Assembly: GCF_001182825.2 (NCBI RefSeq)
Contig: NZ_LFYO02000002.1
Span: forward strand, 682,001-746,000
From: Streptococcus sp. X13SY08
GTDB lineage: Bacteria; Bacillota; Bacilli; Lactobacillales; Streptococcaceae
Length of the DNA stretch: 64,000 nt
Reading direction: 5' to 3'
Shown piece by piece: positions 2,936 to 20,341 of the stretch (position 1 is the stretch's first letter; every line of letters starts with the position of its first letter). The translations under genes and the position numbers were made by a program. The notes under the pieces are model-generated. The model had not been told where the DNA came from, did not search any database, and worked only from the letters and a program-made list of their open reading frames with translations.

Positions 2936-4156
2936 TTAGGCTCGTACTGTCACGGCTTGTCCATCTTCCTTGTAAAGATTGATGAGACCAGATTTGCAGG
3001 CACGAACCATATCTCCTGGAAAGACTTCCTGAGGCACATTAATAGTCAAAAGTTCCATTGGACGATTGGCACGATCAATTGGCATTCCTTCAGAATCATG
3101 CAAATCTTGAATGTTCGTCACAAAATGTCGGAAACCTGAACCATAGAACTCCACTTGGTCCCCTTCATTGATGACATTACGCTGACGAATGGTAGCCTTC
3201 ATCGTTGCTTTATCAGAATCAACAACTTCTGCGATAAATTTGTATTGTGGGATTTTGCGACGAGCGCCGAAAAGTTGTTCATTTTCGGTTGGAGCTTGAT
3301 AGTAGAAACCTGTTGCCAATTCACGTTGCGCCACTTTCCACAGTTCATCAATCAAATCCTGCTTAATGGCCTCAAACTTAGCTGGGCTTTCCAAATAAGC
3401 ATCCACCGCAGCTTTATAGCAGTTCGTAACAGTAGAAACATAGTGAACTGACTTCATGCGTCCTTCGATTTTAAGGCTATCCACACCATTTTCAATCATG
3501 TCTGGAATATGGTCAATCATACACATATCAACTGCAGACATGGAAAATTCTTCAGGCACCTCTCCTTTGATGGAACGACGTTCCTCCCCAAATGGTAAAT
3601 CATAGAGGTTATACTTCCAACGACAAGATTGGGAACAGCCACCAAGGTTGGCATCGCGATTACTCATGTGATTAGACAAAACACAGCGTCCTGAGTAAGA
3701 AATACACATAGCACCATGAACAAAAGCTTCGATTTCTACGCTGGTACGCTTGCGAATCTCTGCTAGCTCTGCCATGGTGACTTCACGCGCCAAGACAACA
3801 CGTGTCAAGCCTAACTGTTTCCAAAATTCAAAGGTTTCATAATTGGTTGAAGAGGCTTGAGTAGACAGATGGATTTCCAAGCCTGGGGCCTCTGTTGCAC
3901 AAATCATAATGAGCGCTGGATCAGAAACAATGACGGCATCAAGTCCCAAATCACGCAACTCGCGGAACCAAGCACCCGCACCTTCTTCATTTCCCTCATG
4001 CGTCACCATGTTAGCAGCTACATAAAACTTGGCATCGCGCGCATGCGCGTAGTCAATGCCCTCCTTCAATTCTTCCATGGAGAAATTTCCCGCACGACTA
4101 CGCAATCCATAGGCTTGACCACCTACAAAGACAGCGTCTGCACCATAATCAATGAC
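2936..4156 (-). pseudogene. U32 family peptidase / tRNA hydroxylation-type protein, 5' end lost
   Basis: The open frame gives 389 residues from an internal Met and reads back to IDYGADAVFVGG at 4153. The usual first 25 or so residues (KPEVLAPAGTLEKL type) are missing and a TGA stands in frame at 4160-4162. U32 hallmarks are present: the LSTQAS stretch, AFVHGAMCISYSGRC with its conserved Cys, and GGCSQSCRW. These cysteines likely bind an Fe-S cluster as in TrhP/RlhA-type RNA hydroxylation proteins. The family is about 428 residues, so only the N-terminus is gone. The break abuts the structured element at about 4157-4428, which probably caused it. The gene follows a second U32 gene in the same direction, the usual tandem arrangement. 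Initiation at an internal Met would drop the first beta strand of the barrel. Confidence 0.8.
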
Positions 4157-4428
4157 ATATCAATTTTTTCTTTCTATTTTTAAGATAGTAAGTTTCATTT
4201 TATTTTTAACAAAAACATATCCCATCTCCGACGATATCCGTAGAAAGCCAATCTTTCTACGGATATCTAGTGCAACTCTTAGCCAATTTCCCATAAGAAT
4301 TGGCGTTGTCTGATGTGACGTAGCCATCAGACATAGAGTTGCCTATTTACAAGATAGTAAGATGTTTTTTCTTTATCTTATAAGTGATGAAGCCTTGAAA
4401 CAGCAACTCAATCTTCATCACTTTTTTT
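4157..4428. repeat. Structured insertion element with direct repeats and nested hairpins
   Basis: This stretch separates two U32 genes and interrupts the second. AAGATAGTAAG occurs at 4182-4192 and again at 4351-4361. Between the copies lies a perfect 15-bp hairpin (4233-4247 with 4253-4267, loop CCAAT). Next is a three-way structure: outer stem 4272-4281 with 4334-4342 (one bulge), enclosing hairpins 4282-4288/4298-4304 and 4307-4315/4325-4333. Downstream, AAGTGATGAA (4382-4391) pairs with TTCATCACTT (4414-4423) followed by T7, a terminator in plus orientation although no plus-strand gene ends here. It has no transposase. It resembles the small dispersed repeats known in streptococci, but I cannot assign it to a named family. 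Confidence 0.65.
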
Positions 4429-4430
4429 AT

Positions 4431-5360
4431 TTATTTGACCTTATTGCGGTCGTATTCGTAAAATCCAGTATCTAACCCATGCTCAGCCGGATGCAATTTA
4501 CGCACAGCTTCATCCAATAAAAAGGCTTGATCGTAAGTGAACGGACCTGCTTGCAGCATTTCTTTTGCTTGGACAAATAACTTAGCGATTTCCACAAAAT
4601 TTTGTCCTGGACAGAAAATTCCGTCCAATTTCCAGTTGCAATAGCCATGGTCCACCAATTCAGTCAACTTACTCATCATATTGATATCATTGTTAATGAA
4701 AATATGGGTCCCATGCTTGTCTTCAAAAATAGAATGATGGCTTTTTGGATCGCCAGGTTCTGACAAGAAAAGACCACGTTCTTTAGACTTATCAGTCTCC
4801 TCACTGTGGGTAAAATTGTAATAATTTTGGAGGAGAGAACGTTTTGAATGATGAATGACAGATACGCCATAGACCAATATTTCTGCTGGAATTTCTAGAT
4901 TTTCGGAGATATCGAACAGTTCTTCTGATGGAATCTCACGCGCCAAGACTGCTTCAACTGCACCATGGTCTTTCCAGAAGTTAATCTGGCGACTAGAGGT
5001 CACAAAAACGGACGTATCGTAAATCAACTTAAAATTGTATCCGTCACGCTTATTGATATAGAAGATGCCTGCATCTCCCACCACCAAATAATCCACTTTG
5101 ATTTCCTTCATCAATTCCATGAAAGGTTGGATATTATCCATCATTTCTTGGTGCATGAGGGCGTTGGCTGCGACTGTCAATTCCTTACCAGCCTCGTGAA
5201 CGAGCTCTGCTATTTGACGCAATTCTTCATAAGTAAATGTTTTAGGCAAACGAAGAGCATAGTCCGCTTCACCTACATAAATGCGGTCAACTCCTGCTGC
5301 CAGAAGTTCTTTAACTTGCTCAAGGCTTTCTGCCGTTGCTGTAATGATTATATTTTTCAT
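4431..5360 (-). CDS. U32 family peptidase-like protein (short paralogue)
   Basis: A complete 309-residue U32 protein opening MKNIIITATAESLEQVKELL. The barrel strands include GVDRIYVGEADYALR, VDYLVVGDAGI and LKLIYDTSVFVTS, and the later motif is EILVYGVSVIHHSKRSLLQNYY. In that motif the Cys residues of the longer paralogue are not conserved. It is the leading member of the U32 pair and normally works with the longer one; here the partner has lost its 5' end. A TATACT box lies only 6 nt before the ATG and there is no clear Shine-Dalgarno sequence, so the mRNA may be leaderless. Substrate is unknown; the pair is often annotated as proteases, but related proteins act in tRNA or rRNA modification. 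Confidence 0.85.
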   Translation of the reverse strand: MKNIIITATAESLEQVKELLAAGVDRIYVGEADYALRLPKTFTYEELRQIAELVHEAGKELTVAANALMHQEMMDNIQPFMELMKEIKVDYLVVGDAGIFYINKRDGYNFKLIYDTSVFVTSSRQINFWKDHGAVEAVLAREIPSEELFDISENLEIPAEILVYGVSVIHHSKRSLLQNYYNFTHSEETDKSKERGLFLSEPGDPKSHHSIFEDKHGTHIFINNDINMMSKLTELVDHGYCNWKLDGIFCPGQNFVEIAKLFVQAKEMLQAGPFTYDQAFLLDEAVRKLHPAEHGLDTGFYEYDRNKVK

Positions 5361-12675: not shown

Positions 12676-13191
12676 TTATTTTGTAAAATCGATTTTTTTT
12701 GCTAACTTTTCAATGACAAGGGCTCCGACCAAGAGCGATGCCAATTCTCCGATTCCTGTCGTAAACCAAGTGAAGAAAAATGGTAAATCATATAAGACTT
12801 TCAATTCCAAGGCAATGGTAAACATAGACAAAGAAAAGAAAAGTGAAAAGTAGAAAAAGGCTTTGTTAAACAGTCCCCCGAATACCCGCTCTGCCATGTA
12901 CCGATGAAAGAGAAGGACACCTAATGCCACAAATACCAAGGTCGATAAACCGCCAACAACCATATCCACTGGGCCAAAGCCAATGAGATTGGAAATCATA
13001 CAGCCAATGGTAATACCGACAATGTACTTAGGCTTGTAAAACGCCAAGAAATTCATCATTTCTGATACGCGGAACTGATAAGCTCCATAAGAAATTGCAT
13101 TAAGCGGTGGAGTAACGGTCAGTACCACGTAAATCGCTGCAACAAGCGCTGTTTGTGCCAGATCGCGAGCAGTCCATTTATTTATATCCAT
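12676..13191 (-). CDS. queT: Queuosine precursor transporter, substrate-binding (S) component
   Basis: 171 residues, about five to six membrane helices. The N-terminus (ARDLAQTALVAAIYVVLTV) and YGAYQFRVSEMMNFLAFY fit the QueT family, the S component of an ECF transporter for preQ1/queuosine precursors. The energising EcfAA'T module would be encoded elsewhere. A preQ1-II riboswitch sits directly upstream, which supports both substrate and regulation. Confidence 0.92.
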   Translation of the reverse strand: MDINKWTARDLAQTALVAAIYVVLTVTPPLNAISYGAYQFRVSEMMNFLAFYKPKYIVGITIGCMISNLIGFGPVDMVVGGLSTLVFVALGVLLFHRYMAERVFGGLFNKAFFYFSLFFSLSMFTIALELKVLYDLPFFFTWFTTGIGELASLLVGALVIEKLAKKIDFTK

Positions 13192-13196
13192 AAGTT

Positions 13197-13272
13197 TCTC
13201 CTTTGGCGGCTAAACCGCGTATAATATGCTTGGCTAAAGGGAGGAAGTGCCAAGGGTTGCTTTCACAACCCG
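13197..13272 (-). promoter_or_regulatory. preQ1-II riboswitch before queT
   Basis: On the minus strand the core has CTTGG (13250-13254) paired with CCAAG, then CATATTATACGCGG, a loop, and CCGCCAAAGGAG leading to the ATG. This is the preQ1-II (COG4708) arrangement known from Streptococcaceae. The upstream hairpin GGGTTG/CAACCC (13255-13272) is the optional first stem. Pairing of the CGCGG/CCGCC region hides the ribosome site when preQ1 is bound. A TATACT box lies just upstream. Confidence 0.9.
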
Positions 13273-13314
13273 TCTAGTATAGCATATTTAGCAAAAAAAT
13301 GGTAGACTATCACT

Positions 13315-19996: not shown

Positions 19997-20341
19997 GTCC
20001 CCCCTAATTTTTGATTCTTACTTTTTCCTCAGTTGTGCTGAGAATAAAAGAAGAAGTTACCTATTCGCTTCTCTCTATAAGATTTAGCGAGTTACGACTG
20101 TGAAACCAAACTTCGATCGTAAGTGAGATTTCAACTAACAAGGCAACTAGCTAGACCACCATAGTGGTTAGCGTCCATTGACGAAGACGACATGTCTGAC
20201 AATGGTGTTGAGTTACAAAGAACCGACTGAAAGAAAGTTCTTTACTGGCAACATTTATTGCGAGTAAAGACAGTTGGTTTTTACGAGTGTATTCCTTCTC
20301 TCAGAATGTCTTATCGGGACTCAATAACGTTTACTATTGTA
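19997..20341 (-). promoter_or_regulatory. metK leader, probable SMK-box (SAM-III) riboswitch with a long insert
   Basis: A TACAAT box (20336-20341, minus) is followed by AGTCCCGATAAGACATTCTG. The GTCCC (20316-20320) can pair with the ribosome site GGGGGAC (19997-20003), as in SMK boxes of lactic acid bacteria. About 300 nt separate the partners and contain further stems: CTTTACT/AGTAAAG, CCATTG/CAATGG, ACCAC/GTGGT and TTACGA/TCGTAA. Long inserts are known in some streptococcal SMK boxes, but this is a consensus reading without a structure search. Confidence 0.55.

Follow-up and report, generated by a model that had tools for sequence, protein, structure and literature searches.

Background

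BOX and other small structured repeats are common among streptococci; the way in which they move and the level at which they act, DNA or RNA, are open questions on which the repeat family described here bears. The passages on BOX-type repeats in Croucher et al. (2011; PMC3049150) give approximately 100 BOX copies for the genomes of S. mitis and S. pneumoniae, and state that some BOX repeats encode the stop codon of the upstream gene. According to the same passages, in which sequence models were used, S. suis is the only other streptococcus with BOX-type repeats; one of its families has boxE (mean 115 nt) and boxF (133 nt) modules around boxB, and an E1B1F1 element is located inside an acetyltransferase pseudogene (PMC3049150).

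The structured unit described here, which was found in the gap between two U32 genes, is similar to pneumococcal BOX, as presented in those passages, in being modular, highly folded, without a transposase and placed in gene ends. It may differ in number, with about 100 copies per genome for BOX versus a maximum of at least 17 for the unit (23–150 candidates scored per genome). The S. suis E/B/F repeats, which these passages describe as modules of approximately 115 and 133 nt in permutations (PMC3049150), are also similar to the unit, and loci of S. suis match our family model. In related genomes, arrays of the unit lie between pheS and either an acetyltransferase frame (NCBIfam PaiA, below cut-off) or pheT. 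The S. suis arrays are probably the E/B/F family as it appears in those passages, to judge from the description given there; the pheS-pheT arrays next to an acetyltransferase frame agree with this, so that part of the family has probably already been described. In contrast to E/B/F as presented there, the unit was found by structure across the genus and in two more genera, and its stem letters are specific to the site. In searches of an open-access library, PMC3049150 was the only relevant paper, and neither the wider family nor its structure and covariation were found described; judged by these searches, the family beyond the probable S. suis arrays is probably newly recognised.

REP elements are hairpins with fixed letters at the foot. 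The unit is comparable to REP/REPIN elements (RAYT) in possessing such a hairpin and no coding capacity of its own, and we know of no REP counterpart for its three-way junction. MITEs are marked by terminal inverted repeats and target-site duplications; in the unit, the two arms P1 and P1' do not enclose the long hairpin P4. The letters of pneumococcal BOX presumably lack the arrangement ACTA-hairpin-GTCG.

Results and discussion

Layout of the U32 gap

The window (the whole stretch of 64,000 nt from Streptococcus sp. X13SY08 that was analysed) carries the genes U32-A and U32-B on its minus strand. Between them, read on that strand, lie a hairpin (4413-4423/4382-4392), a first leader motif, the unit (4343-4229), a tail of 36 nt and a second leader motif, followed by U32-B:

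4431..5360, minus strand: U32-A gene (best family match TrhP-like U32 in NCBIfam, below the curated cut-off)
4382..4423, minus strand: hairpin of the U32 gap, with loop ATTGAGTTGCTGTTTCAAGG on the minus strand (inverted repeat; present in relatives without the unit; outside the unit)
4343..4361, minus strand: U32-B leader motif, copy 1, minus-strand sequence CTTACTATCTTGTAAATAG (directly upstream of P1; direct repeat; occurs in leaders of relatives)
4174..4192, minus strand: U32-B leader motif, copy 2, minus-strand sequence CTTACTATCTTAAAAATAG (adjoins the U32-B gene; direct repeat; occurs in leaders of relatives)
2936 to about 4150, minus strand: U32-B gene (approximately 23 N-terminal codons missing; NCBIfam match below the curated cut-off)

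The initial annotation had named two copies of AAGATAGTAAG as repeats bounding the element, and these were found at 4182-4192 and 4351-4361; the full direct repeats on either side of the unit share 17 of 19 letters. The U32-B leader of relatives, CTATCTTG.AAATAG (or TATATTGCAAATAG), directly precedes the ribosome-binding region and the ATG, and both AAGATAGTAAG copies are therefore read as copies of the native leader. The unit of the window sits between two copies of the leader motif, as if it had been inserted in or beside the leader. A tiny stem (CTAT/ATAG; CAAT/ATTG elsewhere) with a loop of about CTTGNA was seen directly upstream of the U32-B ribosome-binding region in many of the genomes examined.

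The element had also been held to truncate the start of the second U32 gene. This could not be maintained, as U32-B's own leader (minus strand CTATCTTAAAAATAGAAAG; compare CTATCTTG.AAATAG and a purine-rich stretch in relatives) is still present between the unit and the gene, and the approximately 23 codons are lost downstream of this leader, away from the unit. The truncation is a short deletion separate from the unit. The U32-B frame retains no ATG, GTG or TTG start before 4105; a broken gene or an error in the assembly may be the explanation.

The 11-bp arms of the gap hairpin (4382-4392/4413-4423) were confirmed. It had been described as an orphan plus-strand terminator at 4382-4428 that forms part of the element; no long plus-strand frame ends there, and no T run follows on the operon strand. 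Counterparts were identified by eye in the same gap of seven relatives (L010, L013, L020, L049, L053, L054 and L055); they differ in their stems and have a loop resembling that of the window hairpin (minus strand, about GAGTTTTGCTATTTCAAGG). The gaps of these relatives show no three-way junction, and the hairpin is therefore considered an older feature outside the unit. In several streptococci it seems to be a conserved motif of the U32 gap in its own right, at the level of either RNA or DNA. The U32 gap of another genome (G079; L059, approximately 1301-1400, reverse complement) contains a different long structured insert, unlike the unit by eye.

Covariance models and structure of the unit

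A BLASTN search of the element had been proposed as a check for many sites with precise ends. No second full-length copy was found by BLAST in its own genome, in 284 genomes of the genus, in plasmids or in phages, and a unit of the suis group likewise found no copy in plasmids. At E≤0.01, 72 of the 284 genomes, its own included, gave matches, which beyond the own copy spanned approximately 20–57 letters; among ten that were inspected, two appear to be coding (L017 and L030) and three are the U32-B leader (L010, L013 and L020). Since the stem letters differ between sites, BLAST is blind to many of them and covariance models were needed. It was these models that revealed the many sites; precise ends were seen at one site only. 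Searches of the BLAST type can thus overlook repeat families of this kind.

In related genomes the same U32 gap holds one or two units whose letters differ and whose parts come in an unchanged order; units in tandem occur between pheS and pheT. Eight such sequences, with the window excluded, were used to build R1, a covariance model of ACTA-P4-GTCG. R2 comprises the parts of R1 plus hairpin B, and R3 is a corrected R2; the window was left out here as well. R3 located the unit of the window at 4306-4229 on the minus strand with 63.5 bits (E 5e-14 per 64 kb). R2 assigned 63.7 bits to the minus strand and 12.6 bits to the plus strand of the same stretch, and R1 scored the unit at 35.8 bits (E 1.4e-8 per 801 bases). 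P4 alone, read on the plus strand, reached 9.3 bits with R1, as expected of a palindrome. A genome-wide R1 scan of the own genome overlooked the unit of the window at the initial search step; direct scoring detects it. On the minus strand, the parts of the unit follow in the order P1, hairpin A, ACG, hairpin B, CTA, P1', ACTA, P4 and GTCG:

4229..4343, minus strand, in the sense of the U32 genes: structured unit from P1 to GTCG (matched by R3 and R1; P1 added from other evidence)
4335..4342, minus strand: 5' arm of P1, minus-strand sequence GCAACTCT (forms 8 Watson-Crick pairs with 4272-4279; same place as P1 in other members)
4307..4333, minus strand: hairpin A, 9 bp, arms 4325-4333 and 4307-4315 (inverted repeat and fold)
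4282..4304, minus strand: hairpin B, with a TATG loop and a bulge in the 3' arm (aligned to helix 1 of the model; ACG starts at 4306, TA at 4281-4280)
4272..4279, minus strand: P1', AGAGTTGC on the minus strand (pairs with 4335-4342)
4268..4271, minus strand: conserved ACTA (model match)
4233..4267, minus strand: P4, a 15-bp perfect hairpin with a 5-nt loop (inverted repeat; model matches)
4229..4232, minus strand: conserved GTCG, the right end of the unit (model match)

Of the stems in the initial annotation, the 15-bp perfect hairpin (4233-4247/4253-4267), the 9-bp stem (4307-4315/4325-4333) and the enclosing stem (4272-4279/4335-4342) were confirmed. Shuffled sequences fold much less stably, with z-scores for the native sequence of −8.4 on the plus and −10.4 on the minus strand, and none of 200 shuffles was as good on either strand. 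Its proposed plus-strand orientation was reversed, as the family models match the minus strand instead. A small RNA encoded on the plus strand is unsupported. A plus-strand small RNA with its own terminator was likewise rejected as a candidate, given that the structure is on the minus strand and the terminator hairpin is the older gap feature. A minus-strand ATG-led short frame (MSDGYVTSDNANS) had also been pointed out; it sits in hairpins A and B, whose letters vary across the family, and was given no weight.

At the Rfam gathering score, the window contains a single match, and 11 family loci contain none:

13189..13286, minus strand: preQ1-II riboswitch (Rfam RF01054, 80.8 bits)

A permissive search of 4100-4500 returned five weak matches, all far under their cut-offs, and a known RNA family was rejected as the identity of the unit on the basis of these Rfam searches of the window, the 11 loci and 4100-4500.

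Distribution and proposed mobility

At E≤0.1, R1 matched 199 of the 284 genomes of the genus. R2 matched 149 of 196 genomes of the family Streptococcaceae at E≤0.001, in 3 of 10 genera, with at least 1–17 matches per genome where there were any. The counts per genome are lower bounds, 23 candidates being scored in each of the 196 genomes and 150 in the searches of the own genome and further ones. The own genome gave at least 15 matches with R2 at E≤1. These are located, with frames read by eye, in lpdA-lplA, recR-ddl, the U32 pair, pdhA-pdhB, grpE-dnaK and carA-carB, downstream of obg, upstream of metK and at a few other sites. NCBIfam placed GrpE, DnaK, dihydrolipoyl dehydrogenase and PdhB above the curated cut-off and a PdhA fragment below it; most other names of flanking genes are a reading of the protein sequences by eye. 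The window itself holds one further copy:

20095..20174, minus strand: another copy of the unit, in decayed form, located upstream of what reads as metK (R3, 36.6 bits, E 3.8e-7)

Among 80 loci of a collection of named genomes that were listed by a pattern scan, the model matched all 15 from Streptococcus, loci named as S. suis among them, and did not match any of the remaining 65. Judged from the named matching records, the family is present in Streptococcus and, by model matches, in two further genera of Streptococcaceae. As an indication of background density, 2 of 30 loci chosen for a TPP riboswitch hold three matches to the unit. No match was found in the 70 viral contigs scored, from at least 80 found by the scan. 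Together with the negative plasmid searches, this led us to reject an origin from a phage or plasmid.

The U32 gap offers a comparison of filled and empty sites. The U32-B leader is uninterrupted (CTATCCTG-CAAATAG) in L078, L079 and L080, and a unit lies between those same halves in L041, L075 and L097. There is no long duplication at the filled site. The three unit-free leader sites still hold a decayed first unit farther upstream, and it is at this single site, the U32 leader, that precise ends of the unit were observed. The number and order of units in arrays vary between species, and the units of an array differ in their P1' letters. Several sites are common to different species.

In two genomes, G033 and G217, near-identical dispersed copies occur at many places within a longer repeat. 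This repeat (L172-L191) is approximately 350 bp long, with a promoter-like TATGATA, inner palindromes and inverted GATACTTTCC/GGAAAGTATC; it holds the unit near its 5' end, without hairpin A inside P1.

Y1 transposases were present in 9 of the 15 genomes searched, and none of their 25 loci contained the unit, so that among the Y1 loci examined no transposase or recombinase was tied to it. A linkage of the REP/RAYT type was rejected on this count.

The suggestion of a mobile repeat without a transposase was supported in substance, by the many sites, the tandem arrays, the one filled and empty site and compensatory changes in the stems (see below). We regard it as probable, if well short of certain, that the unit, one of a family of structured repeats, is a DNA repeat similar to BOX in kind, non-autonomous and either mobile or array-forming. 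The few matches per genome and the sites shared between species fit old, slow elements or a kept function as well as they fit mobility.

Covariation and fold

Compensatory changes in the stems, by which the initial annotation proposed to judge the element, are abundant across the family. In ten members from different sites, double changes occur in 21 of the 25 pairs, 98.4% of 250 cells are paired and there is no one-sided change; none of 500 shuffles paired as well, and shifting the partners by one column reduced pairing to approximately 49%. RNAalifold independently recovered the same 25 pairs (alignment A7, one row of which has two wrong letters). With 99 distinct members, in an alignment fitted to the model, double changes make up 920 of 2320 cells and 91.4% are paired.

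Of 101 R2 matches, 93 were used for the counts of orientation, P1, stop codons and strictly placed P4; the eight that were dropped score 26–34 bits, and two of them are short. The strict P4 count retained 62 distinct hairpins. For the test of P1, which lies outside the models, removal of five members without ACTA within one mismatch left 88, and reduction by similarity left 70. At least five Watson-Crick pairs are present at the expected place in 26 of these 70 non-redundant members, against a mean of 4.1 and a maximum of 10 when P1' was swapped; a P1 of at least 5 bp is absent from its place in 44. The unit of the window has eight P1 pairs at that place.

Folding of single sequences gave the three-way junction plus P4 in 12 of 16 segments; the L138 unit and, in L106, L134 and L150, the second unit folded in this way partly or not at all. 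The letters of hairpins A and B are not conserved in the family. The spacing ACG-hairpin B-CTA-P1'-ACTA-P4-GTCG in the window is identical to that at unrelated genes. The family is a good case for studying how structured repeats spread and yet stay folded.

Placement at genes

Of 65 site-clusters from six genomes and the own genome, 40 have the unit in sense orientation to both neighbours, 9 have it antisense to both and 16 are mixed; the sense bias (40 of 49) has a one-sided p of 4.6e-6. A sense frame ends within 400 nt upstream of 69 of the 93 units, and in 21 of these 69 the stop codon lies 35–46 nt before ACG. At other distances there are 0–2 units per 5-nt bin, with gene ends called mechanically. 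The unit of the window is 125 nt from the U32-A stop codon, not directly after it.

The pyrF-pyrE arrays (names read by eye) numbered 19 after L428, a pyrF-like locus from the viral scan that holds no unit, had been dropped. The last six coding letters of pyrF are AATGCG, AATAGT or AACTCG; in 18 of the 19 distinct arrays the first unit has a P1' that is their exact complement, compared with 4 of 29 later units. When the first units were shuffled among arrays (20000 times), the mean was 7.7 and the maximum 17. Tails of argS agree more loosely with P1' (15 of 24, read by eye). The simplest reading is that the first pyrF unit includes the end of pyrF, and that exchange of the unit also swaps the last codons of the gene. 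One fold with different letters at many sites in core operons, together with arrays whose first unit fits the tail of the preceding gene, amounts to a natural experiment.

This placement could also be understood if the unit were a cis-acting RNA of the operon. The junction and P4 in the mRNA would then be a processing site, stabiliser or attenuator between the cistrons, linked to the termination of translation through P1, which lies where the upstream gene ends. Such an RNA would account for the excess of sense over antisense sites, for units adjoining stop codons, for the pairing of the pyrF tail with P1' and for the conservation of the unpaired letters ACG, CTA, ACTA and GTCG; the sense bias in particular may reflect an RNA function and speaks against a mobile repeat. 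However, the neighbouring genes as read (pheS-pheT, pyrF-pyrE, carA-carB, pdhA-pdhB, nrdE-nrdF, grpE-dnaK, metK, glyQ and obg) share no pathway, the number and order of units in arrays differ between species, and the 11 family loci have no Rfam match. With the pair counts given below, we consider a cis-acting RNA unlikely.

Maintenance of the stems as DNA or RNA

Among the pairs of RNA helices that depart from the Watson-Crick rule, G.U is as a rule the most frequent, and a count of G.U against A.C separates maintenance at the DNA level from maintenance at the RNA level. A search for tRNA as a control yielded nothing among the 30 loci listed, and the TPP riboswitch of the same genus was used in its place (30 loci, 25 distinct sequences). 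It showed 20 G.U and no A.C in 475 cells. The stems of the family contained 57 G.T and 65 A.C in 2320 cells, and 68 G.T and 87 A.C in 1993 cells in an alignment built like that of the control. In the strictly placed P4 hairpins there were 12 G.T and 25 A.C in 806 cells (Fisher p 2e-7 versus the TPP control, as a guide only since the members are related). The argument presumes the right register and independent members. Because G.U is not favoured over A.C, unlike in the riboswitch, we infer that the stems, which are approximately symmetric between the strands, look kept or made as DNA palindromes. It is mainly for this reason that an explanation at the DNA level is preferred.

The unit is approximately 115–125 nt long and consists of a three-way junction (P1, hairpins A and B and fixed joining letters), ACTA, the long perfect P4 and GTCG. 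As a mobile or array-forming DNA repeat, it would be recognised as a DNA hairpin by machinery encoded elsewhere in the cell and tolerated at gene ends within operons, its stems being maintained or rewritten as Watson-Crick palindromes. Since it would be co-transcribed, the folded mRNA may secondarily alter processing or stability between the two cistrons. We put forward tentatively, as a possible extension that is open to considerable doubt, a class of DNA-hairpin repeats throughout Streptococcaceae that is inserted by pairing or copying at gene ends and either provides the upstream gene with its last codons and stop or becomes fused to them. Templated correction or hairpin-specific recombination, acting on the DNA, would keep the stems as perfect palindromes, with letters that turn over completely and a fold that remains fixed.

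Pairing of P1' with the sequence to its left could have another meaning. By analogy with the guide letters of IS200/IS605 and the EBS/IBS pairing of introns, P1' might serve as a short guide, selecting or fixing the insertion point of a DNA element by its pairing with the flank (the 5' arm of P1). P1' does lie at a fixed place by the foot of P4, it pairs with the left flank, which is coding sequence at pyrF and argS, and its letters differ among the units of an array. Both arms could equally belong to one unit and be exchanged together, though, and the argS tails, read by eye, fit less well (15 of 24). As no insertion event was observed and none of the 25 loci of HUH (Y1) transposases held a copy, we think a guide of this type improbable. 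A one-off structured leader of U32-B, unrelated to the other sites, would explain why BLAST found no other full-length copy in the 284 genomes of the genus, plasmids and phages, but is scarcely credible, as it is refuted by the R2 and R3 matches unless these are due to chance, models built without the window match the unit with an E of 1.4e-8 per 801 bases for R1 and of 5e-14 per 64 kb for R3, and its parts are spaced as at unrelated genes.

Other features of the window

At 368-2846, the window contains a frame of 700 amino acids with a signal-like start (368-2470), an overlapping frame that runs to 2711 and an LPXTG-like tail that extends to approximately 2846 (read by eye). Together these have the appearance of a single gene for a surface protein with interruptions at two or more places.
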